Below are positions 9,489-22,354 of a DNA stretch of 22,354 bases, piece after piece; position 1 is the stretch's first letter, and the number at the start of each line of letters is the position of its first letter. Source of the DNA: a virus; the IMG/VR virus record IMGVR_UViG_3300025646_000424, positions 1 to 22,354 of that record; one strand, 5' to 3'. Made by a program: the position numbers and the translations under genes. Below the pieces are notes generated by a model. It worked only from the letters and a program-made list of their open reading frames with translations, did not search any database and had not been told where the DNA came from.

Positions 9489-9514
9489 AAAAGGGAGCCG
9501 AAGCTCCCTTTTTT
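9489..9514. terminator. Bidirectional terminator between converging genes
   Basis: AAAAGGGAGC/GCTCCCTTTT with the loop CGAA. The run of A on one side and T on the other lets it stop transcription from both strands. It separates the + strand virion-type gene from the minus-strand nuclease gene, whose stop codon touches it. Confidence 0.85.
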
Positions 9515-9929
9515 AGTCTTCTGATTTAATTACTATTCCGTAGATGTTATCTTTTTCAGAACTAAAGAATTTACCTTCTACATTAGTATTGTAATAATCT
9601 TCTCTTAAAATTACATCTCGTTTAAATTGTTCCATGGTTTCATAGAAACTCATGGATTTTTTGTGTGGACAAAGATATAATATTTCACGAAGGAATTTAT
9701 CTTTACCTAATAACTTCACATCTTCTATCAATTCATCACAAGAACCAAAGTAATCTCTCCAATTACTTTCTTTTTTCTTTCTTCTTCCTGTTTTTCTATC
9801 TTTTCTTCTTTCCCAAAAAGTTTTCTTTCCGATATATTTTTTTTGGTTTTCTAGATTGGTGATAAGATATACAAATCCTTCCATGCCATCTGGCACTTCA
9901 TCAATAACTTTTCCTTTTATGTTCCACAC
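9513..9929 (-). CDS. GIY-YIG-like endonuclease, probable homing nuclease
   Basis: This 138-residue protein is the only minus-strand gene. The N-terminal part has the two short motifs of the GIY-YIG fold: VYLITN (GIY position) and KKYIGKK (YIG position). A very basic stretch (WERRKDRKTGRRKKK) follows, then WRDYFGS and an acidic FYETMEQF helix that could hold the catalytic Glu. Small free-standing proteins of this kind are common selfish nucleases in T4-like and other large phages. Translation appears to start at GTG, just beside an outward-facing + strand promoter. Its orientation against all neighbours supports an inserted element. Cleavage target and activity are unknown. Confidence 0.75.
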   Translation of the reverse strand: MWNIKGKVIDEVPDGMEGFVYLITNLENQKKYIGKKTFWERRKDRKTGRRKKKESNWRDYFGSCDELIEDVKLLGKDKFLREILYLCPHKKSMSFYETMEQFKRDVILREDYYNTNVEGKFFSSEKDNIYGIVIKSED

Positions 9930-11756: not shown

Positions 11757-11838
11757 CCTCGTTTGGCGTAATCGGTAGCCGCAGCGGTCTCAAAAACCGC
11801 TTCCGAAAGGAGTCCCAGTTCGAGTCTGGGAACGAGGA
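11757..11838 (+). tRNA. tRNA-Leu (CAA)
   Basis: Class II cloverleaf: acceptor CCTCGTT/AACGAGG, anticodon stem GCGGT/ACCGC around CTCAAAA (anticodon CAA, codon TTG), variable arm TCC/GGA, T arm CCAG-TTCGAGT-CTGG. The discriminator is A and CCA is not encoded. Another promoter starts two bases after its end. Confidence 0.93.
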
Positions 11839-11839
11839 C

Positions 11840-11868
11840 TTGACAATTTTGACTTTATGTCTTATGAT
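11840..11868 (+). promoter_or_regulatory. Sigma-70-type promoter for tRNA-Tyr
   Basis: TTGACA, 17-base spacer, TATGAT, within an inverted repeat GACAAT-N19-ATTGTC (11842-11872). The -10 ends eight bases before tRNA-Tyr. Confidence 0.8.
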
Positions 11869-11876
11869 TGTCTTAT

Positions 11877-11959
11877 GGGTAGGTGTCCGAGTGGTTGAAG
11901 GAGGGGGACTGTAAATCCCTTGGTTCTGTCCATCGTTGGTTCAAATCCAACTCTGCCCA
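11877..11959 (+). tRNA. tRNA-Tyr (GTA)
   Basis: Class II cloverleaf: acceptor GGGTAGG/TCTGCCC (two wobble pairs), anticodon stem GGGGA/TCCCT around CTGTAAA (anticodon GTA), a 14-base variable arm, T arm GTTGG-TTCAAAT-CCAAC. CCA is not encoded. It is followed one base later by an unusual cloverleaf-like element. Confidence 0.93.
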
Positions 11960-11960
11960 T

Positions 11961-12040
11961 TGCCGTGGTTCAGAACCTATGATAAAATCCAGTGGGGCGT
12001 TTATCAAATGGTTTTGATTTAGATTCACGACCACACGGCA
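11961..12040 (+). ncRNA. Cloverleaf-like folded element, not a standard tRNA
   Basis: An 80-base element is closed by a perfect 7-pair stem TGCCGTG/CACGGCA (eight pairs if the flanking T/A is counted). Inside are three arms. A tight GGTT-CAG-AACC hairpin shares one G with the outer stem. A 7-pair hairpin TGATAAA/TTTATCA has a 13-base loop. A 5-pair arm TGGTT/GACCA has a 15-base loop. Size, end-closing stem and three arms copy a tRNA, but the loops do not fit: there is no 7-base anticodon loop and no TTCRANY T-loop. It lies between tRNA-Tyr and the next promoter and would be co-transcribed with tRNA-Tyr. It could be a decayed tRNA or a separate stable RNA, comparable in position to T4 RNAs C and D. 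Confidence 0.45.
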
Positions 12041-12046
12041 ACCCAC

Positions 12047-12075
12047 TTGACAATCAAATCCTTAACTGGTATGAT
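12047..12075 (+). promoter_or_regulatory. Sigma-70-type promoter ahead of a folded RNA and tRNA-Arg
   Basis: TTGACA, 17-base spacer, TATGAT, again inside GACAAT-N19-ATTGTC (12049-12079). Transcription would start near 12082, about 80 bases before tRNA-Arg. Confidence 0.8.
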
Positions 12076-12081
12076 TGTCCC

Positions 12082-12160
12082 ATGAGCAGCGGAGGTCCAC
12101 ACTTCGTATAAGTCTCACCCCTCCCATGCCTCTCGTAGAAGCACAAACAGGGAGGGCTCT
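12082..12160 (+). ncRNA. Candidate small RNA with two competing folds
   Basis: This segment separates its promoter from tRNA-Arg by about 80 bases, whereas the neighbouring tRNA promoters sit 8-14 bases from their tRNAs. CCCCTCCC (12118-12125) can pair with either GGAGG (12091-12095, enclosing an ACTT/AAGT hairpin) or GGGAGGG (12150-12156, enclosing a GC-c-TCT hairpin). GAGC at the start can also pair with GCTC at the end. No reading frame or T-loop is present. It may be an independent small RNA released when tRNA-Arg is processed, or a leader. Seen by eye only. Confidence 0.4.
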
Positions 12161-12161
12161 T

Positions 12162-12235
<74 letters not shown>

Positions 12236-12238
12236 CTT

Positions 12239-12306
12239 GGAGTTAATCTCCATATATAAAAGTGATAGAGGGTAAGTCCCTGTTATATCCTTATGAGGTA
12301 TATCAC
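12239..12306 (+). other. Hairpin cluster between tRNA-Arg and the next gene
   Basis: A GGAG/CTCC hairpin (loop TTAAT) starts three bases after tRNA-Arg and may mark the 3-prime processing point. It is followed by AGGG/CCCT (12269-12281) and ATATCCT/AGG-T-ATAT (12285-12303), with GTG/CAC able to bracket both. It has no T-tract and no reading frame. This could be the folded leader of the 63-residue gene at 12347. Confidence 0.35.
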
Positions 12307-12346
12307 ACTTACTCCATCTCATTTGAATATTGTATTTTCTTAAATC

Positions 12347-12538
12347 ATGGCAAAAAACAAAACAATCAACACTTCTTATGATCTTGGTTATTCTGCCAGG
12401 AATGAAAATCATGATACAATTCGTGATATTCGAATTAATTTTGAAAATCCTGATGATGAATTTCTTATGGATAATTTGAACACTTGGCTTCGAGCAATTG
12501 GTGTTGGTCTAGAAGTTGTAGAGAAGAAAGTTGTTTGA
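12347..12538 (+). CDS. Small hypothetical protein, 63 residues
   Basis: The product begins MAKNKTINTSYDLGYSARNENHDTI and ends WLRAIGVGLEVVEKKVV. The pattern is a charged N-terminus followed by an amphipathic region (FENPDDEFLMDNLNTWLRAIG). Small proteins of this type sit among the tRNAs of T4-like cyanophages, but I know no function for it. It is preceded by a folded leader and followed six bases later by a tRNA-like RNA. No clear promoter or strong ribosome site lies just upstream, so it probably depends on the promoter at 12047. Confidence 0.65.
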   Translation: MAKNKTINTSYDLGYSARNENHDTIRDIRINFENPDDEFLMDNLNTWLRAIGVGLEVVEKKVV

Positions 12539-12543
12539 TTTGT

Positions 12544-12665
12544 ATAGTCCCAGCGACACCGTTGGTAACGGCTATGCAGTGGTGGTGCCACGCGGTCCAG
12601 AAGGAGATTAATCTCTGAGGTAGGTGTATCAAAACTTAAGGTTCGAATCCTTATGCTGGGACTAT
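12544..12665 (+). ncRNA. tRNA-like RNA with an 11-pair closing stem and oversized middle
   Basis: ATAGTCCCAGC (12544-12554) pairs perfectly with GCTGGGACTAT (12655-12665). Just inside lies a good T arm, TAAGG-TTCGAAT-CCTTA (12637-12653), placed as in a tRNA with acceptor CCCAGCG/TGCTGGG and discriminator A (12549-12661). A D-arm-like CCG-TTGGTAA-CGG follows the 5-prime acceptor. The middle is about 65 bases instead of 22-35 and holds GTGG/CCAC and GAGA/TCTC hairpins; no 5-7-5 anticodon arm was found by eye. It could be a tRNA with a small insertion, a decayed tRNA, or a stable RNA using a tRNA end for processing. Confidence 0.5.
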
Positions 12666-12684
12666 TAAATGATTTTATTAATAC

Positions 12685-12713
12685 TTGACAATTAAACTTA
12701 AATAGTTTATAAT
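12685..12713 (+). promoter_or_regulatory. Perfect-consensus promoter for tRNA-Gly and tRNA-Asn
   Basis: TTGACA, 17-base spacer, TATAAT, inside the third copy of GACAAT-N19-ATTGTC (12687-12717). The -10 ends ten bases before tRNA-Gly. Confidence 0.85.
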
Positions 12714-12723
12714 TGTCTCATAT

Positions 12724-12795
12724 GCGGAGTTAGTTCAGCGGTAGAACGCTATCCTTCCAAGTTAGATGTCGTCGGTTCGATTCCGATACTCCGCT
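12724..12795 (+). tRNA. tRNA-Gly (TCC)
   Basis: Perfect acceptor GCGGAGT/ACTCCGC, D arm GTTC/GAAC, anticodon loop CTTCCAA (anticodon TCC, codon GGA), T arm GTCGG-TTCGATT-CCGAT, discriminator T. The anticodon stem CTATC/GTTAG has one T-T mismatch. A GAACC-TTTT-GGTTC hairpin (12798-12811) follows directly. Confidence 0.93.
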
Positions 12796-12815
12796 CTGAA
12801 CCTTTTGGTTCTTAT

Positions 12816-12887
12816 TCCACAATAGCTCAGCGGTAGAGTCGGTGACTGTTAATCACTTGGTCCCTGGTTCGAATCCAGGTTGTGGAG
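12816..12887 (+). tRNA. tRNA-Asn (GTT)
   Basis: Acceptor TCCACAA/TTGTGGA, D arm GCTC/GAGT, anticodon stem GGTGA/TCACT around CTGTTAA (anticodon GTT, codons AAC and AAT), T arm CCTGG-TTCGAAT-CCAGG, discriminator G. A perfect GTTGGTA/TACCAAC hairpin (12887-12905) begins at its last base. Confidence 0.95.
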
Positions 12888-12958
12888 TTGGTATTAATTA
12901 CCAACTTCTACTACGGGTATCTTCCGTAGCGTCGTAAGGGAAGGGCACCGTTCTTCCC
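12887..12958 (+). other. Three consecutive hairpins after tRNA-Asn
   Basis: GTTGGTA/TACCAAC (loop TTAAT), CTACGG/CCGTAG with a 7-base loop (12911-12929), and GGGAAG/CTTCCC with a 9-base loop (12938-12958). None is followed by a T-tract, so they are not ordinary terminators. The middle hairpin has anticodon-arm dimensions. With the tRNA-like piece that follows they may form one folded RNA. Confidence 0.4.
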
Positions 12959-12960
12959 AC

Positions 12961-13032
12961 CCTCTGGTAGTCTATTGGTAAGGACAGGCGGACAACGCAC
13001 TTGGAAACTAGGTTCGATTCCTAGACAGAGAC
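12961..13032 (+). pseudogene. Degenerate tRNA
   Basis: This 72-base stretch has the length of its tRNA-Gly and tRNA-Asn neighbours. It keeps a D arm (GTCT/GGAC, loop ATTGGTAA) and an exact T arm (CTAGG-TTCGATT-CCTAG). The acceptor pairs only over its five central bases (CTCTG/CAGAG), with mismatches at both ends. The anticodon region does not form a 5-pair stem and lacks T33, so no anticodon can be read. It is most simply a decaying tRNA. An alternative is a tRNA-like module serving as the end of a longer RNA that starts at the hairpins upstream. Confidence 0.55.
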
Positions 13033-13045
13033 ATAAGTATTTCAT

Positions 13046-13072
13046 AACTCACCTTGCAAAAGGTGAGTTTTT
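13046..13072 (+). terminator. Rho-independent terminator
   Basis: Ten-pair stem AACTCACCTT/AAGGTGAGTT with a GCAA tetraloop, then TTTC. It closes the tRNA-Gly/Asn transcript and is followed five bases later by a late promoter. Confidence 0.85.
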
Positions 13073-13076
13073 CTTG

Positions 13077-13084
13077 TATAAATA
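13077..13084 (+). promoter_or_regulatory. T4-type late promoter (TATAAATA)
   Basis: Exact T4 late octamer, directly after a terminator and 30 bases before the zinc ribbon gene. Confidence 0.65.
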
Positions 13085-13114
13085 ATAAGATCTAAAAATA
13101 CATCATGAGAAAAA

Positions 13115-13366
13115 ATGTTAAAGATAAGATGCAAAGAGTGTAATACTGAAGTTTCTGCACATCCTGGACAATCCAAATCATGTGGATGTCCAAATATGGC
13201 TACAATCAAGGGAGATAAAATATCTGCACTAGATTTGTCTAAGATAGTTATGTTGAATTCTTATATTCAAAAGGAATCTAACAGAGTTTTGACAAATGAG
13301 GATATTATGTGGCAAGAGGCAAGACGCCAAAGAAAAGTTCGTAAACTGGATTTCGAGATCAAATGA
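13115..13366 (+). CDS. Small zinc ribbon protein
   Basis: The 83-residue product starts MLKIRCKECNTEVSAHPG and has Cys6, Cys9 (CKEC) and two further Cys in SKSCGCPN, a four-Cys zinc ribbon within the first 27 residues. The remainder is helical and charged, ending RRQRKVRKLDFEIK. Zinc ribbons this small usually bind nucleic acid or another protein; no catalytic domain is attached. Its late promoter argues for a role late in infection. A short overlapping frame from 13105 stops after 12 codons and is not favoured. tRNA-Ser begins nine bases after its stop. Confidence 0.75.
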   Translation: MLKIRCKECNTEVSAHPGQSKSCGCPNMATIKGDKISALDLSKIVMLNSYIQKESNRVLTNEDIMWQEARRQRKVRKLDFEIK

Positions 13367-13375
13367 TCTATGGTT

Positions 13376-13458
13376 GGAAGATAGCACTGATGGTCGGTAA
13401 ATCGTCTTGAAAACGATGCCAGGGTAAAAACCTGATAGTTCGATTCTATTATCTTCCG
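13376..13458 (+). tRNA. tRNA-Ser (TGA)
   Basis: Class II: acceptor GGAAGAT/ATCTTCC, anticodon stem ATCGT/ACGAT around CTTGAAA (anticodon TGA, codon TCA), long variable arm CAGG/CCTG, T arm GATAG-TTCGATT-CTATT, discriminator G. It has no early promoter of its own and is probably read from the late promoter before the zinc ribbon gene. Confidence 0.94.
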
Positions 13459-13460
13459 TT

Positions 13461-13468
13461 TATAAATA
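13461..13468 (+). promoter_or_regulatory. T4-type late promoter (TATAAATA)
   Basis: Exact late octamer, three bases after tRNA-Ser and only 12 bases before the metalloprotease ATG. By T4 spacing the mRNA would have a leader of only a few bases and no ribosome site. Confidence 0.65.
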
Positions 13469-13480
13469 CATAAAAAACTC

Positions 13481-13852
13481 ATGAGATTTAAAGAGTTTCT
13501 ATCTGAATCAACGAAGATTCAGGTTAAAGATTTTATGCATTTTGTTAAAGATGAACTTGGTCTAGCATCTTTGCCGAAAGTTATTGTAATAGATGACCCA
13601 CAGTTTTCTATAGACAATAAAACATTCGGATGCTTTAATTTAGGTAGTGATGAGATAAAAGTTCAAACTGCACAAAGACATCCTTTGGATGTATATAGAA
13701 CTTTAGCTCATGAACTTGTTCATTATCATCAAAAGCAAAGTGGAAAAGAGATGAGCGGTGAAGATGGATCAGAGTGTGAAAATGAGGCAAATTCTAGAGC
13801 AGGCGAAATATTAAGGAAGTATACTAAAACTATCAATAATCATGGATATTAG
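13481..13852 (+). CDS. HExxH zinc metalloprotease with capsid-targeting-like N-terminus
   Basis: The 123-residue protein has a zincin active site, H77-E-L-V-H81 (LAHELVHYHQ), and a downstream ENEAN with Glu102 as likely third zinc ligand: the gluzincin layout in minimal form. Its first residues, MRFKEFLSES, match the T4 internal-protein targeting peptide (MKTYQEFIAEA); L7-S-E9/Ser10 would be the prohead-protease cut. With the late promoter this suggests a protease packed in the head and injected. Similar small peptidases with ENEAN are, from memory, common in marine T4-like phages. The catalytic assignment is strong; packaging is inference. The substrate is unknown. Confidence 0.85.
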   Translation: MRFKEFLSESTKIQVKDFMHFVKDELGLASLPKVIVIDDPQFSIDNKTFGCFNLGSDEIKVQTAQRHPLDVYRTLAHELVHYHQKQSGKEMSGEDGSECENEANSRAGEILRKYTKTINNHGY

Positions 13853-13869
13853 GATTTCCTGACAATATA

Positions 13870-13897
13870 TTGACAATAAAGATGTTGATATTATAAT
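13870..13897 (+). promoter_or_regulatory. Sigma-70-type early promoter for the mini-gene cluster
   Basis: TTGACA, 16-base spacer, TATAAT. It starts 17 bases after the metalloprotease stop and precedes four overlapping small genes. Confidence 0.75.
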
Positions 13898-13921
13898 TAG
13901 TTTTGTTATGTTGGGTGTCCA

Positions 13922-14086
13922 ATGGACGATAGAACATATAGTAATTGGATTAAAATTAAAGAAACTTTTGAGGCATCTGGTAATACAGATAATATGTTTT
14001 ATAAGAGAGCATGTGAAATAGCAAAAACAAAAAAAGATCCTTTAGCAAAGTTTCTTGGAGATGTTCAGAGAGATGCAAATTACTGA
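13922..14086 (+). CDS. Mini-gene 1: basic 54-residue protein
   Basis: The frame reads MDDRTYSNWIKIKETFEASGN and ends DVQRDANY. It is a helical, Lys-rich soluble protein with a single Cys. It is the first coding frame downstream of a strong early promoter and overlaps the next start by 14 bases. No family is recognised. The reading frame is supported by its promoter, the chain of overlaps that follows and codon use like that of its neighbours. Confidence 0.6.
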   Translation: MDDRTYSNWIKIKETFEASGNTDNMFYKRACEIAKTKKDPLAKFLGDVQRDANY

Positions 14087-14183
14087 AAAAGATTTATTAG
14101 AATTGCAGCAGAGAATATTGCAGAAAAAGATGGAAGAATTATTTGAAGAACCATCTAGTTATGAAGATGAAGAAGATGACTAG
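14073..14183 (+). CDS. Mini-gene 2: acidic 36-residue protein
   Basis: A short helical product (MQITEKDLLELQQRILQKK) ends in an acidic tail of Glu and Asp (SSYEDEEDD). The start lies inside mini-gene 1 with a purine-rich ribosome site (CAGAGAG), and the end overlaps mini-gene 3 by 8 bases. It could be an adaptor or coiled-coil peptide. Support comes from overlap organisation rather than homology. Confidence 0.5.
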   Translation: MQITEKDLLELQQRILQKKMEELFEEPSSYEDEEDD

Positions 14184-14268
14184 TAGCACAATTTTTACAG
14201 CATTGACTATTTTCACCTCAATAGGATTATTTTTATATTGGGGTCTCACTCATGCATATCCACAATGA
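14176..14268 (+). CDS. Mini-gene 3: 30-residue single-pass membrane peptide
   Basis: Almost the whole product is one hydrophobic helix (about residues 5-24, TIFTALTIFTSIGLFLYWGL) with a short tail THAYPQ. It begins inside mini-gene 2 and its stop overlaps the next start as ATGA, pointing to translational coupling. Candidates are a holin-like or membrane-stress peptide, or a small subunit joining a host membrane complex; the sequence does not decide. I could not match it to known small photosystem subunits. Confidence 0.5.
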   Translation: MTSSTIFTALTIFTSIGLFLYWGLTHAYPQ

Positions 14269-14381
14269 TTTTCCATATCGTAGAGTCCCTGGCAGCAAGC
14301 CCACTTTTTCTTTTTCTTTGTGGGATGGGATTGACAGTAGTTCCATTTGCTGGTATCATGTATATACACCGAACTAAATAA
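14265..14381 (+). CDS. Mini-gene 4: 38-residue single-pass membrane peptide
   Basis: The second tiny membrane protein in a row: an amphipathic start (MIFHIVESLAASP), a hydrophobic helix (LFLFLCGMGLTVVPFAGIMYI) and a basic end HRTK. The start overlaps the preceding stop as ATGA. A pair of coupled membrane peptides suggests a two-component membrane complex. A tRNA promoter lies inside its 3-prime half. Confidence 0.5.
   Translation: MIFHIVESLAASPLFLFLCGMGLTVVPFAGIMYIHRTK
14331..14359 (+). promoter_or_regulatory. Sigma-70-type promoter for tRNA-Pro
   Basis: TTGACA, 17-base spacer, TATCAT, lying within mini-gene 4. Transcription would begin about 24 bases before tRNA-Pro. Confidence 0.65.
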
Positions 14382-14389
14382 CGATAATA

Positions 14390-14465
14390 CCGGATATCGC
14401 CTAACTTGGTCATGGCACCTGCTTTGGGAGCAGGAATAATTTCAGTTCAAATCTGAATATCCGGA
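14390..14465 (+). tRNA. tRNA-Pro (TGG)
   Basis: Acceptor CCGGATA/TATCCGG, D stem GCC/GGC, anticodon stem CCTGC/GCAGG around TTTGGGA (anticodon TGG, codon CCA), T arm TTCAG-TTCAAAT-CTGAA, discriminator A. CCA is the common Pro codon in the neighbouring genes. Confidence 0.93.
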
Positions 14466-14482
14466 TCATAAAAAACTACTTT

Positions 14483-14716
14483 ATGAAGATGGATCAACAA
14501 CTTAAAGAACTCCAATCATTTACAGTCGAAGAGTTTCAAGAAAACTTTGACTATTTGATAGATAGAGTGGAAAATGGCGAGTCCTTTGTGATTACAAGTG
14601 AATATGGCAATGCAATGGTAGTCCCATATGATGAAGTTATTTCAGTTGTAAGTGAGTCAAAATTGGATACAGAAGAATTTATTAGAATTCACACTGACCA
14701 TGAAGAGGGGTGTTGA
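14483..14716 (+). CDS. Phd/YefM-like antitoxin, no toxin partner seen
   Basis: This 77-residue protein carries the pattern of the Phd/YefM antitoxin N-terminal domain: FTVEEFQENFDYLIDRVENGESFVI followed by a beta segment ending MVVPYDEV (known proteins have sequences like EFRKNLSELLDEVENGEPVIIT...VLVPYEE). The N-terminal part would bind DNA; the C-terminal part, which neutralises a toxin in true pairs, is short and acidic (SKLDTEEFIRIHTDHEE). No Doc-, YoeB- or PIN-type toxin is visible nearby. It may counter a host toxin or act as a repressor. A second in-frame ATG at 14489 is an alternative start. Its stop codon lies inside the -35 of the tRNA-Ile promoter. Confidence 0.75.
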   Translation: MKMDQQLKELQSFTVEEFQENFDYLIDRVENGESFVITSEYGNAMVVPYDEVISVVSESKLDTEEFIRIHTDHEEGC

Positions 14717-14741
14717 CAGGCTAAACTGAATCTGCTATAAT
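14713..14741 (+). promoter_or_regulatory. Perfect-consensus promoter for tRNA-Ile
   Basis: TTGACA, 17-base spacer, TATAAT. The -35 contains the stop codon of the antitoxin-like gene. The -10 ends 14 bases before tRNA-Ile. Confidence 0.85.
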
Positions 14742-14755
14742 TGATAGGTCTTCAA

Positions 14756-14829
14756 GGGAGCGTAGCTCAACTGGTCAGAGCACAGACCTTATAAGTCTGG
14801 GGTTCTGGGTTCAAGCCCCAGCGTTCCCA
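14756..14829 (+). tRNA. tRNA-Ile (TAT)
   Basis: Acceptor GGGAGCG/CGTTCCC, D arm GCTC/GAGC, anticodon stem CAGAC/GTCTG around CTTATAA (anticodon TAT, reading ATA), T arm CTGGG-TTCAAGC-CCCAG, discriminator A. Reading ATA directly with TAT avoids the lysidine-modified CAT tRNA used by most bacteria. Confidence 0.95.
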
Positions 14830-15584: not shown

Positions 15585-15923
15585 ATGGAAAGAACTAATC
15601 GCCCTTGGGGCTGGTATGAAAACATACAAGAAGATACTGGATATAAAGTTAAAAGACTTTATGTTCAGCCAGATAAAAAAATATCTTTACAATATCACAT
15701 CCAACGAAATGAACACTGGATTGTAGTGTCTGGTGATGGTAAGTTTGAATTAAATGAAATAGTTAAAGATGTATCAATAGGTGATTATATTTTTGTTCCA
15801 ATGACATCTAAACATCGTATAATTGGGGGAAGTTGTGGTATAATGATAATTGAAATCCAGATAGGAACAATTTGTGACGAAGAAGATATTGTTAGACTTG
15901 AAGATGACTATGGGAGAATTTAA
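15585..15923 (+). CDS. Mannose-6-phosphate isomerase-type cupin
   Basis: A 112-residue stand-alone cupin matching the C-terminal isomerase domain of bifunctional type II phosphomannose isomerase/GDP-mannose pyrophosphorylases. Features are an RPWGWY start, SLQYHIQRNEHWIVVSG with His38 and His44 as metal ligands, His77 in TSKHR, and the terminal EEDIVRLEDDYGR signature. It would convert fructose-6-phosphate to mannose-6-phosphate and so feed GDP-mannose synthesis; the pyrophosphorylase half is absent and would come from the host. Only three bases separate it from gmd, supporting one operon. It could have drifted to another sugar isomerisation. Confidence 0.85.
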   Translation: MERTNRPWGWYENIQEDTGYKVKRLYVQPDKKISLQYHIQRNEHWIVVSGDGKFELNEIVKDVSIGDYIFVPMTSKHRIIGGSCGIMIIEIQIGTICDEEDIVRLEDDYGRI

Positions 15924-15926
15924 GTT

Positions 15927-16928
15927 ATGAAAACAGCATTATTAACAGGAATTACAGGACAAGATGGGTCGTATCTCGCAGAATTATTACTTGAAAAGGG
16001 TTATAAAGTTCATGGCATTGTCCGAAGAGCATCCCTTATTAATACTCATCGTATTGACCATATCTATGATTCTATTGCTCTCCATTACGGTGACCTTACT
16101 GATTCTACCAATCTTGTAAGAGTCATTCAGCAAGTTCAACCTGATGAGATTTATAATCTAGGGGCACAGAGTCATGTAAAGGTATCTTTTGAGATGCCTG
16201 AATATACAGGACAAACTGATGCTTTGGGGACACTTCGCATTCTTGAAGCAGTTCGTCTTCTTGGAATGGAAAGTAAAACTAGAATTTACCAAGCATCTAC
16301 ATCAGAGATGTTTGGTGAGGTTCAAGAGATTCCTCAGAGAGAAACTACACCTTTTTACCCTCGTTCACCTTATGGAGTTGCAAAAGTATATGGATACTGG
16401 ATCGTCAAAAACTACAGAGAGTCTTATGGATTACATGCAAGTTCTGGAATTCTTTTCAATCACGAGTCCCCTAGAAGAGGAGAAACTTTTGTCACAAGAA
16501 AAATCACTAGAGGATTATCATCTATTTCAACTGGGAAACAAGATGTACTATATCTCGGCAATCTGAATGCAAAGCGTGATTGGGGACATGCAAAGGATTT
16601 TGTGGAAGCAATGTGGTTAATGCTCCAACAAGATAAACCAGATGATTATGTAATTTCGACAGGAGAGCAATACTCAGTTCGTGATTTTGTTGAATCCGCA
16701 GCACCTTATTTTGGGATGCAAATTACTTGGAGAGGTGAAGGTATGGATGAAGTTGGATATGATGTTTTTACTGGAAAAGAGATTATAAAAGTTAATCCTA
16801 AATATTTTCGACCTGCCGAAGTTGAAACTTTATTAGGTGATGCCACAAAGGCAAAGGAAAAATTAGGTTGGGAGCCTAAAATTTCTTTCGAACAATTAGT
16901 TGAGGATATGTGTAACAATGAATTTTAA
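15927..16928 (+). CDS. gmd: GDP-mannose 4,6-dehydratase
   Basis: The 333-residue short-chain dehydrogenase makes GDP-4-keto-6-deoxy-D-mannose, the branch point for fucose, colitose, rhamnose and perosamine. It opens with the NADP-binding GxxGxxG (TGITGQDG, residues 7-14) and the family signature HGIVRRAS. The active-site set is T125/E127 (ASTSEMFGE) and Y149-x3-K153 (SPYGVAK); [15 protein letters not shown] is also typical. The length is usual for bacterial Gmd. It overlaps the next gene by 11 bases. GC and codon use look slightly richer than in the transferase genes downstream, suggesting a different origin. Confidence 0.96.
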
Positions 16929-17847
16929 TGATAAAATATTAGTTGCTGGATCCAATGGAATGGTTGGATCTGCAATTGTTCGTAATCTTAAACAAAAAGG
17001 TTATACGAATGTAATTCAAGCGACTCGTCAATGGGTTAATTTTACCAATCAAAATGATACTAATATATTTTTTGAATCAATAAAACCAGAATATGTATTT
17101 CTATCAGCTGCAAAAGTTGGTGGAATTATGGCAAATAAGACTAATCCAGCAGAATTCATCTATGACAATTTGATGATTCAGAGTAATATTATCCATGCTT
17201 CTTTGTATAATAAAGTCAAAAAAGTTTTATTTCTTGGATCTTCTTGTATATATCCAAAATTTGCTACACAGCCAATAACTGAAGATCAATTAATGTCTGG
17301 TCCACTTGAACCAACAAATGATGCCTATGCTATAGCAAAAATAGCAGGAATAAAGTTATGCCAAGCATATTCACAACAATATGGTATGAATATTGTTTCA
17401 TTGATGCCAACGAATTTGTATGGACCAAATGATAACTTTTCGATACATGAAGGTCATGTACTTGCTGCACTATTGAAAAAAATACACGATGCCAAGATTT
17501 CAAATAAACCTACGGTAGAATGTTGGGGTGATGGCTCTTCCATGAGAGAATTTTTACATGTAGATGATTTAGCTGAAGCATGTTATTTTTGTATGTTAAA
17601 TTATGATTCTTCCGACATATTAAATGTTGGGACTGGAATTGATATGACGATTAAAGATTTGGTGAATGTGATTGCGAATATTATTGGATACGAAGGAGAA
17701 TTTGTGTGGGATACAACTAAACCAAATGGTACTCCAAGAAAAGTTTTAAATGTAGATAAAATTAAAAATATAGGGTGGGAACCAAAAATTGAATTAAATT
17801 TTGGAATACAAGAAACATATAATTGGTATAAAGAAAATGAAATTTAA
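16918..17847 (+). CDS. fcl: GDP-4-keto-6-deoxymannose 3,5-epimerase/4-reductase (GDP-L-fucose synthase type)
   Basis: From this ATG (overlapping the gmd stop by 11 bases) the product is 309 residues, the usual Fcl/WcaG length. Motifs: GSNGMVG (11-17), LGSSCIYP with Ser and catalytic Cys110, Y137-x3-K141 (DAYAIAK), [11 protein letters not shown]. It would epimerise C3 and C5 and reduce C4 to give GDP-L-fucose. Because a ColD-like enzyme follows, a second possibility is that it acts as the ColC-type 5-epimerase/4-reductase that completes GDP-L-colitose; ColC is a relative of Fcl. Sequence alone favours Fcl, with the substrate open. Confidence 0.93.
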
Positions 17848-19000
17848 ATGGCCTTTGATGAAAAATAATATCACTTTCGGTGATAGATTTAAACTTGCCA
17901 AATTCGTATTAACATCTGATAGATTCACGAATGGCAAAAAAGTTAGACAATTTGAAAGTGAATGGAATAATTGGTTGGGATCTAAGTATTCTCTATATGT
18001 TTCTTCGGGAAGTACTGCTAATTATCTTCTTTTGTCGTCTGTTAAAGAATTATATGGATTAAAGGATGGCGATAAAGTACTTGTTCCATCTTGTACATGG
18101 GTTACAAATGTTGGGCCAGTAATTCAACTTGGATTTACTCCAATTTTTTGCGACATAAATTTAGAAAATTTTAGTTTTTGTGAAAAAAATCTAGAATATA
18201 TTTCTTCTATTCATCCCGATATTAAATTGATTTTTGTTACGCATTTAATAGGATATTCCGCAGATAATGAAAGATATAAAAAGCTTTTTCCTAATGCTCT
18301 AATATTAGATGATATTTGCGAATCTCATGGATGTAAAGATGATCTAGGAAACAAAAGAGGGTCTAATAGTTTAGGTGCAACTTTTAGTTTTTATTTCGGT
18401 CATCATATTTCTACGGTAGAAGGTGGGATGGTATCTACAAATAACTATGAATTATATGATTTGATGAGATTAAAAAGAAGTCATGGTCTAGCTAGAGAGT
18501 CTGAAAAATTTGATTTTTATATAAACAAATATCCAGACATTTCAAAGCAATTTATTTTTGTTACTGATGGTTACAATTTTAGGAATCATGAAATCTGTGC
18601 AGTCTTAGGTATGTCTCAATTAAAAAGATTGGACATGTACATTGAAAAGAGAAATAATAATTTTAAGAAATTTATTAATTTAGTTTCACAATACGAACAT
18701 TTATTTTATGTACCAGAAATAAATGATAAATGTAGTAATTTTTGCTTTCCTTTAATTTGTAAAGATAAAAATCTTACAATAAGATTGAAAAAAATATTTG
18801 ATGAGAATGGGATAGAACATAGACCGATAATTAGTGGAAATCTTCTAAAGCAACCATTTTTGAGTAACTATACAATAACTAGCAATAAACAAAAATTAAA
18901 TATTGATACTATTCATGATAATGGAATATACTTAGGGAATAATCAGTTCGTTGGTAACATGGAAATTAATTTATTATCTAAAATAATAAAGTCACTATGA
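17837..19000 (+). CDS. colD: ColD-like PLP-dependent GDP-4-keto-6-deoxymannose 3-dehydratase
   Basis: The 387-residue protein has the DegT/DnrJ/EryC1/StrS aminotransferase fold: SGSTANYL (58-65) for the phosphate, DDICESHG with Asp159 for the PLP ring, and the FRNHE region. The Schiff-base Lys is missing: the site reads FYFGHHISTVEGGM, with His at 189-190. A His here defines ColD (E. coli ColD uses His188), which removes the C3 hydroxyl of GDP-4-keto-6-deoxymannose, exactly the Gmd product. Four-Cys iron-sulfur sites of the related RfbH were not noticed. The ATG at 17837 overlaps the fcl stop by 11 bases; the frame is open upstream to 17801 but the longer start is unlikely. Confidence 0.85.
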   Translation: MKFKWPLMKNNITFGDRFKLAKFVLTSDRFTNGKKVRQFESEWNNWLGSKYSLYVSSGSTANYLLLSSVKELYGLKDGDKVLVPSCTWVTNVGPVIQLGFTPIFCDINLENFSFCEKNLEYISSIHPDIKLIFVTHLIGYSADNERYKKLFPNALILDDICESHGCKDDLGNKRGSNSLGATFSFYFGHHISTVEGGMVSTNNYELYDLMRLKRSHGLARESEKFDFYINKYPDISKQFIFVTDGYNFRNHEICAVLGMSQLKRLDMYIEKRNNNFKKFINLVSQYEHLFYVPEINDKCSNFCFPLICKDKNLTIRLKKIFDENGIEHRPIISGNLLKQPFLSNYTITSNKQKLNIDTIHDNGIYLGNNQFVGNMEINLLSKIIKSL

Positions 19001-19674
19001 ATAATGTACTAATAATATTATGTTCTTATAATAGTAAAAATCACACTAAAAAAGTTTATGACGAATTAAAAGATATTCAAAGTATAGACTTAATGGTTTT
19101 AGATAATTCTTCTTCTGCTGATCTGATATCCGATTTTGATCCATACATTCACATTGGATTTGAGAATGTTGAATATGGTGGTATGCATGATTATATTCTT
19201 AGTATGGATAAGATCTATTCATATGATTATGTTGGGATATTTAATAATGATATATTTGGGTTTACCGAAAGACATTTCGAAGTGTTACAAAATTACTTGG
19301 ATTCGGATGTAGGTTATATTTCATTTAGTATATCACCAGAATATGATAAGTCTGCTAATATAATGTATCCTAAATCTTCCACATGTAGAGAAGTAAATTT
19401 CGTTGAAAATGTTGCACCAATTTATAATATAAAATTGTTGAATGAACTTTCAAAATATAGACCAATCCATAAGTATGCATTGATAGATAAATTTATGTCA
19501 GCTAGATCAAATGAACTAGGAATGAAAAATATTATAATTGATGAAGTATTTTTTCATCACCTTAGAAGTGGAGTTAGAAAAGAAGTAAATTCATTTAATC
19601 AATACATAAAAAATCATACATTTGAAACGAATAAGTGGATTGAAGCTCACCCAGAGCTAATAAAATATTTTTAA
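18997..19674 (+). CDS. GT-A-fold glycosyltransferase (GT2-like)
   Basis: The 225-residue product starts with a family-2-like nucleotide-sugar region (NVLIILCSYNSKNHTKKVYDEL, then LMVLDNSS) and has GIFNNDIFGF near residue 81, where GT2 enzymes carry the DxD metal site; here it is Asn-Asn-Asp. There is no membrane helix, so it would work in the cytoplasm on a lipid-linked or protein acceptor. The start overlaps the preceding stop as ATGA. Family assignment is by motif only; the relaxed DxD leaves substrate and even activity uncertain. Confidence 0.75.
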   Translation: MNNVLIILCSYNSKNHTKKVYDELKDIQSIDLMVLDNSSSADLISDFDPYIHIGFENVEYGGMHDYILSMDKIYSYDYVGIFNNDIFGFTERHFEVLQNYLDSDVGYISFSISPEYDKSANIMYPKSSTCREVNFVENVAPIYNIKLLNELSKYRPIHKYALIDKFMSARSNELGMKNIIIDEVFFHHLRSGVRKEVNSFNQYIKNHTFETNKWIEAHPELIKYF

Positions 19675-19681
19675 AAAAATT

Positions 19682-20485
19682 ATGATAAGTATAAATTTAG
19701 TAGGATCTTCTTTTTCGCATTTGACAAATGGGAATAAAGGATACTCAGTCCATGGAAAAGAATCTAAACATATTTCATGGAAATTCGATAAATCTTTAGG
19801 TATAACTTTTTATATTGATAGGAGTTTGGAATCAGCACTATATGATGATATAAAAGGAATAAAATATGGTTGGTTATTAGAATGTAAATATATTACACCA
19901 GATATTGTAGAAAAGGTTAAGAACAATTATCAAGAGTATTTTAATACTTTTAAGTATATCTTTACAAATGATAAAGAATTATTAGATCTAGATGATAGAT
20001 TCAAGTGGTGTCCTACTGGTGGATTTTGGATAAAAAATCCAATGATTTATCCAAAATCAAAAATGATTTCTTTTATTACATCTAAAAAATCTTTTACTCC
20101 AGGTCATAAAGTTAGATTAAATTGGGTAGAAAAAATTGGAAATCAAGTTGATCTTTATGGTAGGGGGTTTAAAGAAATTGAAAATAAAGAGGAAGGACTC
20201 TGTGATTATATGTTTTCCGTAGCAATAGAAAATGGATTTTATGAATCATTTTTTACGGAAAAAATCTTAGATTGTTTTGCTACTGGAACAATACCAATCT
20301 ATTTGGGAACTAAAGACATTGGTAATCATTTTAATGTTGATGGAATAATAAATCTTGAAGACGAATTTCAAGTTTCTGAAGAAATTTACTTCAATAAAAT
20401 TGAAGCGATAAAAGATAATTTGGAAAGAGTCAAAAAGTTTGAAGTTTTAGAAGATTTTATTTACGAAAATTATGATATCATTTAA
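19682..20485 (+). CDS. GT10-type (alpha-1,3/4) fucosyltransferase
   Basis: In this 267-residue protein the C-terminal half carries the GT10 signature: YMFSVAIENGFYESFFTEK, then a GTIPIYLG segment (family pattern FxxxxEN...YxTEKI...G..P). This is the GDP-fucose-binding part of the Rossmann-like domain. The N-terminal half is more divergent. The donor would be GDP-L-fucose or the 3-deoxy analogue colitose made by the genes upstream. It starts eight bases after the previous gene and overlaps the next by 14 bases. The family call is fairly strong; linkage is not predictable. Confidence 0.8.
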   Translation: MISINLVGSSFSHLTNGNKGYSVHGKESKHISWKFDKSLGITFYIDRSLESALYDDIKGIKYGWLLECKYITPDIVEKVKNNYQEYFNTFKYIFTNDKELLDLDDRFKWCPTGGFWIKNPMIYPKSKMISFITSKKSFTPGHKVRLNWVEKIGNQVDLYGRGFKEIENKEEGLCDYMFSVAIENGFYESFFTEKILDCFATGTIPIYLGTKDIGNHFNVDGIINLEDEFQVSEEIYFNKIEAIKDNLERVKKFEVLEDFIYENYDII

Positions 20486-21260
20486 TCATCTTGGGAATCA
20501 TGGACATTTGGGGAATCAAATGTTTCAATACGCTGCAGTAAAAGCACTTGCAAAAAAACATAATAGATCTTTCATGATTCCTCCAAAAGAAGTTTTTGGA
20601 AAACAATATTATACTAAGTTGAGAAGTAATATTGATGAATGTTTCAACATTACTTGTGAAAGAGGTATTAGTGACTTTCCAACTTTAAATGAAAAAACTT
20701 TTTCATTTGATAAGGATCTATTTGATAATTTTCCAAAAGAAGATGTAAATCTCCTAGGATTTTTTCAGAGTGATAAATGGTTTAAACATATTGATGACGA
20801 AATTCGAAGTGATTTTACTTTTATTCCAGAATACTATGATCCTTCTATTGAGTTAAGAGAACAGTTTGGAAATAAGATTGCATGTATTCACATTAGAAGA
20901 ACTGATTATCTATCTAATCCTCATCATCAATGTCAAAGTGAGGAGTATTATAAAAAATCTTTAGAAAAAATTCCTGATGATTGTGAAGTTTTAATATTTT
21001 CCGATGATCCCCAGTGGTGTAAAAATCAAGATATTTTTTCTTCGGATAGATTTTTAGTATCTGAAACTAATAATGCATATGTCGATTTGTGTCTGATGAC
21101 GATGTGTGACTATATTATTACTGCTAGTAGTACATTTAGTTGGTGGGGAGCATATCTTTCCAATGCAGAAATTGCCATCGCACCTAAAAAATGGTTTGGT
21201 CCAAATAATTCTCATCTAGATACATCTGATATATACTGTGATGACTGGGTTGTCTTATGA
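20472..21260 (+). CDS. GT11-type (alpha-1,2) fucosyltransferase
   Basis: The 262-residue product has the GT11 opening motif GHLGNQMFQYAAVKALA (residues 11-27), the donor-binding IHIRRTDYL (139-147) and a late STFSWWGAYLS segment, all hallmarks of alpha-1,2-fucosyltransferases. Its neighbour belongs to GT10, so two unrelated fucosyltransferase families sit side by side with GDP-fucose/colitose synthesis. Members of GT11 are reported to use GDP-colitose, so either sugar is possible. The start lies inside the end of the preceding gene. Confidence 0.9.
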   Translation: MISFNHLGNHGHLGNQMFQYAAVKALAKKHNRSFMIPPKEVFGKQYYTKLRSNIDECFNITCERGISDFPTLNEKTFSFDKDLFDNFPKEDVNLLGFFQSDKWFKHIDDEIRSDFTFIPEYYDPSIELREQFGNKIACIHIRRTDYLSNPHHQCQSEEYYKKSLEKIPDDCEVLIFSDDPQWCKNQDIFSSDRFLVSETNNAYVDLCLMTMCDYIITASSTFSWWGAYLSNAEIAIAPKKWFGPNNSHLDTSDIYCDDWVVL

Positions 21261-21910
21261 ATGATATGAATGATATAAATTGCTTAATTTCATACCCAAG
21301 AAGTGGTAATACTTTGATTAGATTTTTAATTGAGTATATTACGGAAAGGATTGTTGTTGATTATAATGAAGAAATTCCAGATTCCGCAATTAAATATTTA
21401 AGTCCAGATGGTATTGATATTGTACCTAAAAATCCACCAATACTTCGTAAATTTCATCTAGTTGATTCTAAATTAAATGAAAAAAGCAAAATTGGAAAAA
21501 GTAAGATAAATTTGATTATTCGTGATTATTATGAATGTATATTATCACATTCTAAGAGAGGTTGTAGAAAAACATTATCCGAACAAATTAATGACTATTG
21601 TGACTTAATTAGATATTATGATGAATCTGAAAACAAAGAAACTTTAATTTATTATGAAGATATAATTGATGTTGAAAAGCAACCAGAAGTAATAAAAACA
21701 TTACTTGATAATAACGGTATTGATACTATTCCAAATTGGGATTCGTATTTAAAAAATATTTTATTTTTAAATAAAAAATCTAAAGACGGTTATATCAAAA
21801 TTTATAAAACAGTTGAGAAAGAATATGAAAATAAGTCTTTATATTATAAAGAAATTAAGTCTAATCTTGGAGAAATTTTATTTGAAAAATATTTAAGTAG
21901 ATATGAATAA
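21257..21910 (+). CDS. PAPS-dependent sulfotransferase
   Basis: The 217-residue protein begins with the 5-prime-phosphosulfate loop SYPRSGNTLIRFLIEY (residues 12-27) and has the 3-prime-phosphate motif IIRDYYECILSH, with Arg89 and Ser97 as the PAPS ligands. It would move sulfate from PAPS to a hydroxyl, most likely on a sugar given its position among glycosyltransferases. The length is at the short end of the family. The start overlaps the fucosyltransferase stop as ATGA. Substrate is inferred from context. Confidence 0.85.
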   Translation: MNDMNDINCLISYPRSGNTLIRFLIEYITERIVVDYNEEIPDSAIKYLSPDGIDIVPKNPPILRKFHLVDSKLNEKSKIGKSKINLIIRDYYECILSHSKRGCRKTLSEQINDYCDLIRYYDESENKETLIYYEDIIDVEKQPEVIKTLLDNNGIDTIPNWDSYLKNILFLNKKSKDGYIKIYKTVEKEYENKSLYYKEIKSNLGEILFEKYLSRYE

Positions 21911-22354
21911 AACACTTAATAATTACTTTGAAAGAATATATTGTGTAAATTTAGATAGAAGACCAGAAAGATGGGAGTCTTCTAGAAAACAATTTTTTAA
22001 GCACCATTTAAATGTTGAAAGATTTTCTGCAGTTGATGGGAAGACATGCAATCCAGTTAATAGATTAAAGTCTGGTGAAATTGGTTGTTTAATGTCACAT
22101 TTGAATATTCTTATTGATTGTCAAAAAAATAATATTGAGAATGTTCTTATTACTGAAGATGATGTTGAATTTTGTGATAATTTGAATGAAGTATTTTTTA
22201 AATACGAAAAGGAACTACCAAGGTGGGACATGCTTTATCTTGGCGCTAATCATGCTTTATGTAATCCATATGAAAATAATCCACCAATAAAAATTACTGA
22301 ACATGTGTATAGAATATTACATGCATATTCAACACATGCTTATGCAGTAAATAA
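21903..22354 (+). CDS. GT25-type glycosyltransferase, cut by the window edge
   Basis: About 150 residues are visible, with no stop before the right edge. The start FERIYCVNLDRRPERWESS, the GEIGCLMSHLNIL segment and ITEDDVEF are the hallmarks of the LPS glycosyltransferase family 25 (LgtB/Lex2B type), with EDD as the metal-binding acidic motif. These enzymes add galactose or related sugars to lipooligosaccharide. It overlaps the sulfotransferase gene by 8 bases, so the operon continues beyond the window. Confidence 0.88.
   Translation, partial: MNKTLNNYFERIYCVNLDRRPERWESSRKQFFKHHLNVERFSAVDGKTCNPVNRLKSGEIGCLMSHLNILIDCQKNNIENVLITEDDVEFCDNLNEVFFKYEKELPRWDMLYLGANHALCNPYENNPPIKITEHVYRILHAYSTHAYAVN

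Follow-up and report, generated by a model that had tools for sequence, protein, structure and literature searches.

We analyzed a viral DNA of 22,354 bases, the entire IMG/VR record IMGVR_UViG_3300025646_000424 (hereafter, the window). At positions 15927-19000 it carries three overlapping plus-strand genes, namely gmd, fcl, and a gene for a protein with the fold of pyridoxal phosphate (PLP)-dependent enzymes. The first-pass annotation had assigned the third gene to a dehydratase of the ColD type, which would act on the product of Gmd and open a route to GDP-L-colitose, a 3,6-dideoxy sugar. Our analysis supports the presence in phages of a conserved dehydratase of this type, encoded together with gmd and fcl, and GDP-L-colitose as its most likely end product (probability of roughly 0.6 for the statement as a whole).

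The ColD-like protein and its catalytic histidine

The PLP-fold gene starts at the ATG of MKFKWPLM, which is kept in the related contigs L001, L002, and L003; a TTG at 17801 is superfluous. The motif FYFGHHISTVEGGM was found exactly as described at residues 185 to 198 of the 387-amino-acid translation. In a search of PDB sequences, His189 of this protein aligned with His188 of Escherichia coli ColD, a position occupied by Asn in PDB 3b8x and by Lys in PDB 2r0t. In line with this, the aldimine column of a 24-row alignment held His in 22 of 22 His-type rows and Lys in both Lys-type rows. The window protein thus has His189, and not a lysine, in the aldimine position.

The best four PDB sequences were all ColD (2gms, 3b8x, 2r0t, and 3gr9; E values 3e-51 to 7e-50), followed by E1 (5e-32) and, at 8e-32, a putative NDP-4-keto-6-deoxyglucose-3-dehydratase; no aminotransferase scored better than 6e-25. 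An AlphaFold model of the protein (mean predicted local distance difference test [pLDDT] score, 86.9; predicted template modeling [pTM] score, 0.87) retrieved ColD chains at Foldseek ranks 1 to 12, with query TM-scores of 0.84 to 0.89. Among 774 matches in a Foldseek search of BFVD, 26 were below 0.001, and none was a close relative with a name; one was a 145-residue fragment at 42%.

E1/RfbH enzymes share the fold, the His for Lys, and the C3 deoxygenation, but they differ in requiring a [2Fe-2S] cluster and a reductase; the review PMC8987622 describes four cysteines holding this cluster in E1 and SpnQ, its absence from ColD, and His for Lys in all three. Three of the four E1 cysteine columns lacked Cys in the window protein, and the fourth is also Cys in E. 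coli ColD. At 21 columns that distinguish 13 canonical ColD sequences from 13 E1 sequences, the ColD letter occurred 10 times in the window protein, the E1 letter 3 times, and neither of them 8 times. Five non-ColD viral rows, four E1-like and one Lys-type (L138), were left out of the viral set for this count. Furthermore, the window protein keeps E. coli ColD residues Trp88, Glu162, His215, Arg219, Phe240, Arg250, and Glu329, chosen as active-site positions, while three E1 rows differ at all seven except Arg219.

A tree of 83 rows placed the window protein on the ColD side (51 rows; Shimodaira-Hasegawa-like approximate likelihood ratio test [SH-aLRT], 97), opposite an E1 side of 22 rows (95). 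The Lys-type rows stood apart from both, and the protein did not group with Lys-type aminotransferases. Its own clade was virus dominated (27 rows; SH-aLRT, 99) and comprised the window, 24 rows from phages or viral contigs, and two contigs labeled as bacterial metagenome-assembled genomes (MAGs); of these two, L011 also appears in IMG/VR. Of 179 family rows, the tree leaves out 6 shorter than 330 residues, the second copies of the window protein and of E. coli ColD, 77 viral rows that were nearly identical to others, and 11 named rows, of which 10 are E1-like proteins of cyanobacteria and one is L172. Like the Fcl and GT11 trees below, it is a quick SH-aLRT tree, with no bootstrap and with long-branch warnings.

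We conclude that the PLP-fold protein is very probably a C3-dehydratase. PDB, Foldseek, and tree agree on the ColD type, as the first-pass annotation had it, and the adjacent Gmd (62 to 63% identical to E. coli Gmd) suggests GDP-4-keto-6-deoxymannose as the substrate, which this Gmd would make. The E. coli O55 colitose cluster is built alike, with Gmd, a short-chain dehydrogenase/reductase (SDR) gene overlapping the ColD gene, and a GT11 gene in one cluster. Its ColD is likewise of the His type and shares the predicted fold and many active-site residues with the window protein, but the cluster has ColC where the phage has Fcl. The O55 names ColC, ColD, and WbgN are our own assignment; the record lists a GDP-L-fucose synthase family protein, a DegT aminotransferase, and an alpha-1,2-fucosyltransferase.

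Occurrence of the cassette and a candidate matching glycosyltransferase

Two IMG/VR scans yielded 82 unique contigs, some of them near-copies of one another. Because the second scan was limited to the 80 best of 364 confirmed loci, these contigs represent the closest members of a larger set, and gene counts refer to the stretch examined. A ColD-like open reading frame (ORF) above 250 bits was present on 81 of the 82 contigs (the ORF of L006 is truncated), and all 81 carried SFYFGHH. Among these 81 contigs, gmd was found on 74, fcl on 66, and both on 60. The ratio of nonsynonymous to synonymous substitution rates (dN/dS) of the window gene was 0.04, 0.12, 0.15, and 0.09 against L001, L003, L002, and L100, respectively. 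These sequence comparisons indicate that the His for Lys is not due to chance and that the gene is under purifying selection. Eleven of the 15 contigs without fcl have another SDR after ColD. Of the remaining four, L119 ends and L102 starts at ColD, L139 carries a gene that resembles fcl but has diverged (34%), and L164 lacks any such gene.

ColD-like matches were also detected in 79 of 50,697 named phage records. The best 40 belonged to S-CAM7 or ACG-2014f (53 to 55% identity), while some of the weaker ones (28.5% and below) may be other DegT family members. In both phages gmd, fcl, the ColD-like gene, and the GT11 gene are consecutive and in the same order as in the window, upstream of a tail-fiber gene; they differ in that the ColD-like gene is annotated as a CDP-sugar dehydrase or aminotransferase and that in the window two genes separate ColD from GT11. 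Among the best 80 of 483 matches in a scan of genome contigs, one was above 50%, L011. This contig, from a Crocinitomicaceae MAG bin, coincides with the IMG/VR phage contig 2825980227 (L118) in length, range, and match position.

Among viral loci selected by fcl, ColD is accessory: 10 of 80 had it in the stretch examined, namely L095, L096, and 8 of the 78 new loci, while a further locus, L252, was cut off inside ColD. The cyanophages S-SCSM1 (according to PMC9602691) and S-SRM01 (by its annotation) resemble the window in combining gmd-fcl with fucosyltransferases; in that paper, the S-SCSM1 genes are described as GDP-fucose and cell-wall genes. S-SRM01 differs in having no ColD-like match in its 22-kb stretch (L010).

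Other members of the family occur on some of the contigs. On L096 (4726-6024), L157 (12886-14229), L127, and L158, the ColD-like gene is accompanied by a gene for another His-type dehydratase, one that has the cysteine motif of E1/RfbH. Against the RfbH cutoff of 423 bits, the L157 protein passes (441 bits) and that of L096 falls below (380 bits). Some phages may therefore make two kinds of 3,6-dideoxy sugar. L138 has, from position 2526 onward, a Lys-type DegT protein on a viral contig that also encodes a ColD-like protein. In the phylum of Hassallia, the ColD-like protein matched 68 of 386 genomes at 1e-30, and 15 of the best 20 of these matches had the E1-type motif SFYPAHH or SFYPPHH. Two of these 20 (L320, 2.7 Mb, and L321, 2.0 Mb) both carry ColC-ColD, with gmd in L321 only. 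These genes suggest that 3,6-dideoxy sugar genes are not rare among the sampled genomes of the phylum.

Identity between the window GT11 and the one encoded in the E. coli O55 cluster is 32%. When GT11s from loci of the ColD and fcl scans were placed in one tree, the clade of the window GT11 comprised 15 rows (98), all from ColD loci; none of the 20 ColD-free rows fell inside, and 21 other ColD-locus rows lay outside. A scan by GT11 similarity found ColD at 23 of 80 viral loci. Fourteen of the 18 best GT11s had ColD, three near-duplicates did not, and one was cut off; these top matches are no blind sample, since the query alignment was built from ColD-linked proteins. After removal of 13 duplicates, a second tree gave a window clade of 13 rows (97) with ColD nearby in 12, and all eight rows with gmd or fcl but without ColD were outside it. 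The ColD labels in both trees hold for the stretch examined only; in the de-duplicated set, 18 of 68 rows were too near a contig end to judge, and L345, labeled as having neither, shares its contig with L163, which has ColD. The GT11s of S-CAM7 and ACG-2014f, which adjoin ColD, belong to the same clade as that of the window, where two genes intervene. According to PMC12723683, GDP-colitose is the natural donor of WbgN and GDP-fucose is tolerated. The window GT11 is a candidate colitosyltransferase, for which GDP-colitose would be the donor, and its linkage would fit a transferase kept for the ColD product.

The remaining genes of the cassette are listed in Table 1. The sugar genes form a single tight plus-strand block from 15585 to the window end, in the order cupin, gmd, fcl, PLP-fold gene, 225-amino-acid gene, GT10, GT11, possible sulfotransferase, and cut-off GT25. 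A possible role of the cupin, judged from its family, is the supply of mannose-6-phosphate. The 225-amino-acid protein had no NCBIfam or PHROG family and only a chance-level Pfam match (0.15). The name sulfotransferase is our assumption, based on TEG12 and the SYPRSG motif.

Table 1. Genes and motif of the sugar block in the window
Feature	Position	Strand	Evidence or remark
Cupin, mannose-6-phosphate isomerase C-terminal family	15585..15923	+	Pfam MannoseP_isomer, 2e-28
gmd, GDP-mannose 4,6-dehydratase	15927..16928	+	TIGR01472, 557 bits (cutoff 415); PDB Gmd 7kf3, 2e-154
fcl, GDP-fucose-synthase-type epimerase/reductase	16918..17847	+	ATG start; PDB 1bws, 6e-104
Probable ColD-type PLP/PMP (pyridoxamine phosphate)-dependent sugar C3-dehydratase (387 aa)	17837..19000	+	PDB ColD 2gms, 3e-51; Foldseek; tree
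Catalytic motif FYFGHHISTVEGGM	18389..18430	+	His189 codon 18401-18403
225-aa protein, glycosyltransferase-like by eye only	18997..19674	+	92% identical relative in L001
GT10 (fucosyltransferase family)	19682..20485	+	Pfam Glyco_transf_10, 2e-09
GT11, candidate colitosyltransferase	20472..21260	+	Pfam Glyco_transf_11, 1e-26
Possible sulfotransferase (weak)	21257..21910	+	PDB TEG12 at E 0.07 only
GT25 glycosyltransferase, cut by window end	21903..22354	+	Pfam Glyco_transf_25, 3e-19

In the phage collection, the closest DNA relatives of the window were the T4-like Synechococcus phages S-SRM01 and DSL-LC02/03, with 18 to 27% of the window covered, and we propose that the window derives from a T4-like cyanophage (Kyanoviridae type). 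It also encodes NrdA, NrdB, and a protein with a tail-lysozyme domain. Of nine tRNA genes at 11757-14829, two are for tRNA-Leu(caa), and a SegE-type GIY-YIG endonuclease gene lies on the minus strand at 9513-9929 among plus-strand genes.

Fcl in place of ColC and the competing readings

The middle gene had been described as Fcl/ColC-type. The Fcl part of this description held (52% identity to E. coli Fcl, and the tree), but the ColC part did not (39% identity, outside the ColC clade), and we rejected ColC as its identity. Fcl is the best NCBIfam match of the protein, but below the NF047922 cutoff (460 versus 500 bits). At 25 columns distinguishing ColC from Fcl, defined mostly on viral Fcl and on ColD-free rows, the window had no ColC letter, ColD-linked viral Fcl proteins had 0 to 5, and ColD-free ones had 0 to 1. 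Ser107, Cys109, Tyr136, Lys140, and His179, the catalytic residues of E. coli Fcl, have equivalents both in the window protein and in the ColC rows. Since these five are kept, Fcl has the residues for C5 inversion and C4 reduction. With Fcl rather than ColC in the middle, GDP-colitose depends on Fcl accepting a 3-deoxy substrate, which is our guess.

Several observations weigh against colitose, or against a straightforward equivalence with the E. coli system. The window protein is only 32% identical to E. coli ColD and lies outside the canonical ColD clade that includes E. coli O55 (13 rows, 100), six members of which adjoin a ColC-type gene. In a 58-row tree, seven ColC rows formed one clade (99), and every viral row, including the window, went with Fcl; a ColC-type SDR beside viral ColD was looked for, and none was found. 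Near-identical rows had been removed before the Fcl trees and the first GT11 tree. The 30 ColD-locus rows and 13 ColD-free rows of the Fcl tree intermix, with 8 changes, at least 3 of them forced by starred branches. The labels are partly clustered, as shuffling gave a mean of 11.3 changes and only 8 of 500 shuffles were as low as the observed 8 (three truncated or ambiguous "no ColD" rows were set aside in this label-corrected count). This pattern indicates that ColD was joined to, or lost from, the phage gmd-fcl unit several times. In the Foldseek ranking, a Lys-type GDP-perosamine synthase follows directly after ColD, with E1 at rank 16, and AlphaFold is uninformative on the catalytic loop (residues 189 to 192, pLDDT below 50). 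Eight of 20 ColD-linked GT11 rows of the de-duplicated tree are outside the window clade, and the GT11s of L329, L330, and L333, nearly identical to one another, belong to the ColD-linked clade but lie on contigs where ColD had no match. Finally, 11 contigs (L121, L124-L129, and L131-L134) have gmd, ColD, and then the other SDR; that of L131, the sole one examined, is GDP-mannose 3,5-epimerase-like (E, 4e-87), and the other ten have the same length and weak Fcl match. No Fcl-type gene was found on these 11 fragments (12 to 37 kb) or on the 72-kb contig L164.

These 11 contigs, and the presence of Fcl instead of ColC, favor a reading in which the C3-dehydratase is real but the end sugar is not colitose: a host enzyme or a GDP-mannose 3,5-epimerase may finish the intermediate, reduction may proceed without C5 inversion, or the substrate may be a heptose. 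PMC10440746 adds to this that ColD relatives of Campylobacter, 62 to 67% identical to ColD, act on heptose. We consider such an outcome unlikely, given that Fcl occurs together with ColD on 66 of 81 contigs, that the five residue equivalents are common to Fcl, ColC, and the phage protein, that the adjacent Gmd passes the hexose Gmd model, and that no heptose genes were seen by eye among the ORFs of the window, itself a fragment.

The dehydratase could instead be a CDP-4-keto-6-deoxyglucose 3-dehydrase of the E1/RfbH type, as in the annotation of S-CAM7 (KU686212). Although RfbH is the best NCBIfam match (NF011936) and the three E1-like letters at the diagnostic columns point the same way, we rejected this identity as very improbable: the protein reaches 170 bits against a cutoff of 423, lacks three of the four Fe-S cysteines, is placed with ColD in the tree, and neighbors Gmd, not a CDP-glucose dehydratase. 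Moreover, the RfbH-type protein of phage contig L157 passes the cutoff and has retained the cysteines of the motif. A DegT sugar aminotransferase of the ordinary kind, yielding GDP-perosamine or a similar sugar, as suggested by the Pfam name, by PHROG 3139 ("aminotransferase"), and by the Foldseek position of GDP-perosamine synthase, was likewise rejected, and we give it very little credence, because the catalytic Lys is His in all 81 viral contigs, under purifying selection, and the Lys-type proteins are separate in the tree. That the cassette is host-derived cargo without present use would suit the accessory occurrence of ColD at fcl-selected loci, but is hard to reconcile with the low dN/dS (0.04 to 0.15), with a gene order conserved in many contigs, S-CAM7, and ACG-2014f, and with the matched GT11 clade; we regard it as highly unlikely.

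A proposed colitose branch in cyanophages

In the favored reading, which ends in GDP-L-colitose, Gmd would convert GDP-mannose to GDP-4-keto-6-deoxy-mannose, and the His-type ColD-like enzyme would remove the C3 hydroxyl to give GDP-4-keto-3,6-dideoxy-mannose, using glutamate to regenerate its PMP. Fcl would then perform C5 inversion and C4 reduction to GDP-L-colitose and would also yield GDP-L-fucose from undiverted substrate. The GT11 of the ColD-linked clade would move colitose onto a glycan of the host surface or the virion, the presumed purpose of the cassette. The genes present, the predicted fold, the catalytic residue, the class of the enzyme, and the linkage are established; the complete route from GDP-mannose to GDP-colitose, as first proposed, is plausible from the genes present. 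More tentatively, and with somewhat less than even confidence, we suggest a colitose branch owned by cyanophages: a ColD lineage of their own that joined the widespread gmd-fcl unit of phages more than once, with ordinary Fcl (in some phages, GDP-mannose 3,5-epimerase) replacing ColC and with GT11 colitosyltransferases of a corresponding lineage. Its role would be to alter a surface antigen of the infected host or to give the virion a coat of rare sugar.

The first-pass annotation knew of no description of colitose synthesis by phages. No report of such a route, and no paper joining cyanophage and dideoxy-sugar terms, was found in the literature searched by titles and abstracts, with subscription journals largely outside the coverage. 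The genes themselves, however, are already present in S-CAM7, ACG-2014f, and IMG/VR under other names, so the novelty lies in their interpretation and not in their existence.

If the favored reading is true, the annotation in named cyanophage records and in PHROG 3139 would be corrected, and phages would gain a route to a 3,6-dideoxy sugar. The ColD-like protein, Fcl, and GT11 would be small, testable enzymes for making and using GDP-colitose. Furthermore, a specific and unusual sugar would be predicted for mass spectrometry, which would bring into sharper focus why T4-like cyanophages have such long clusters of glycan genes.

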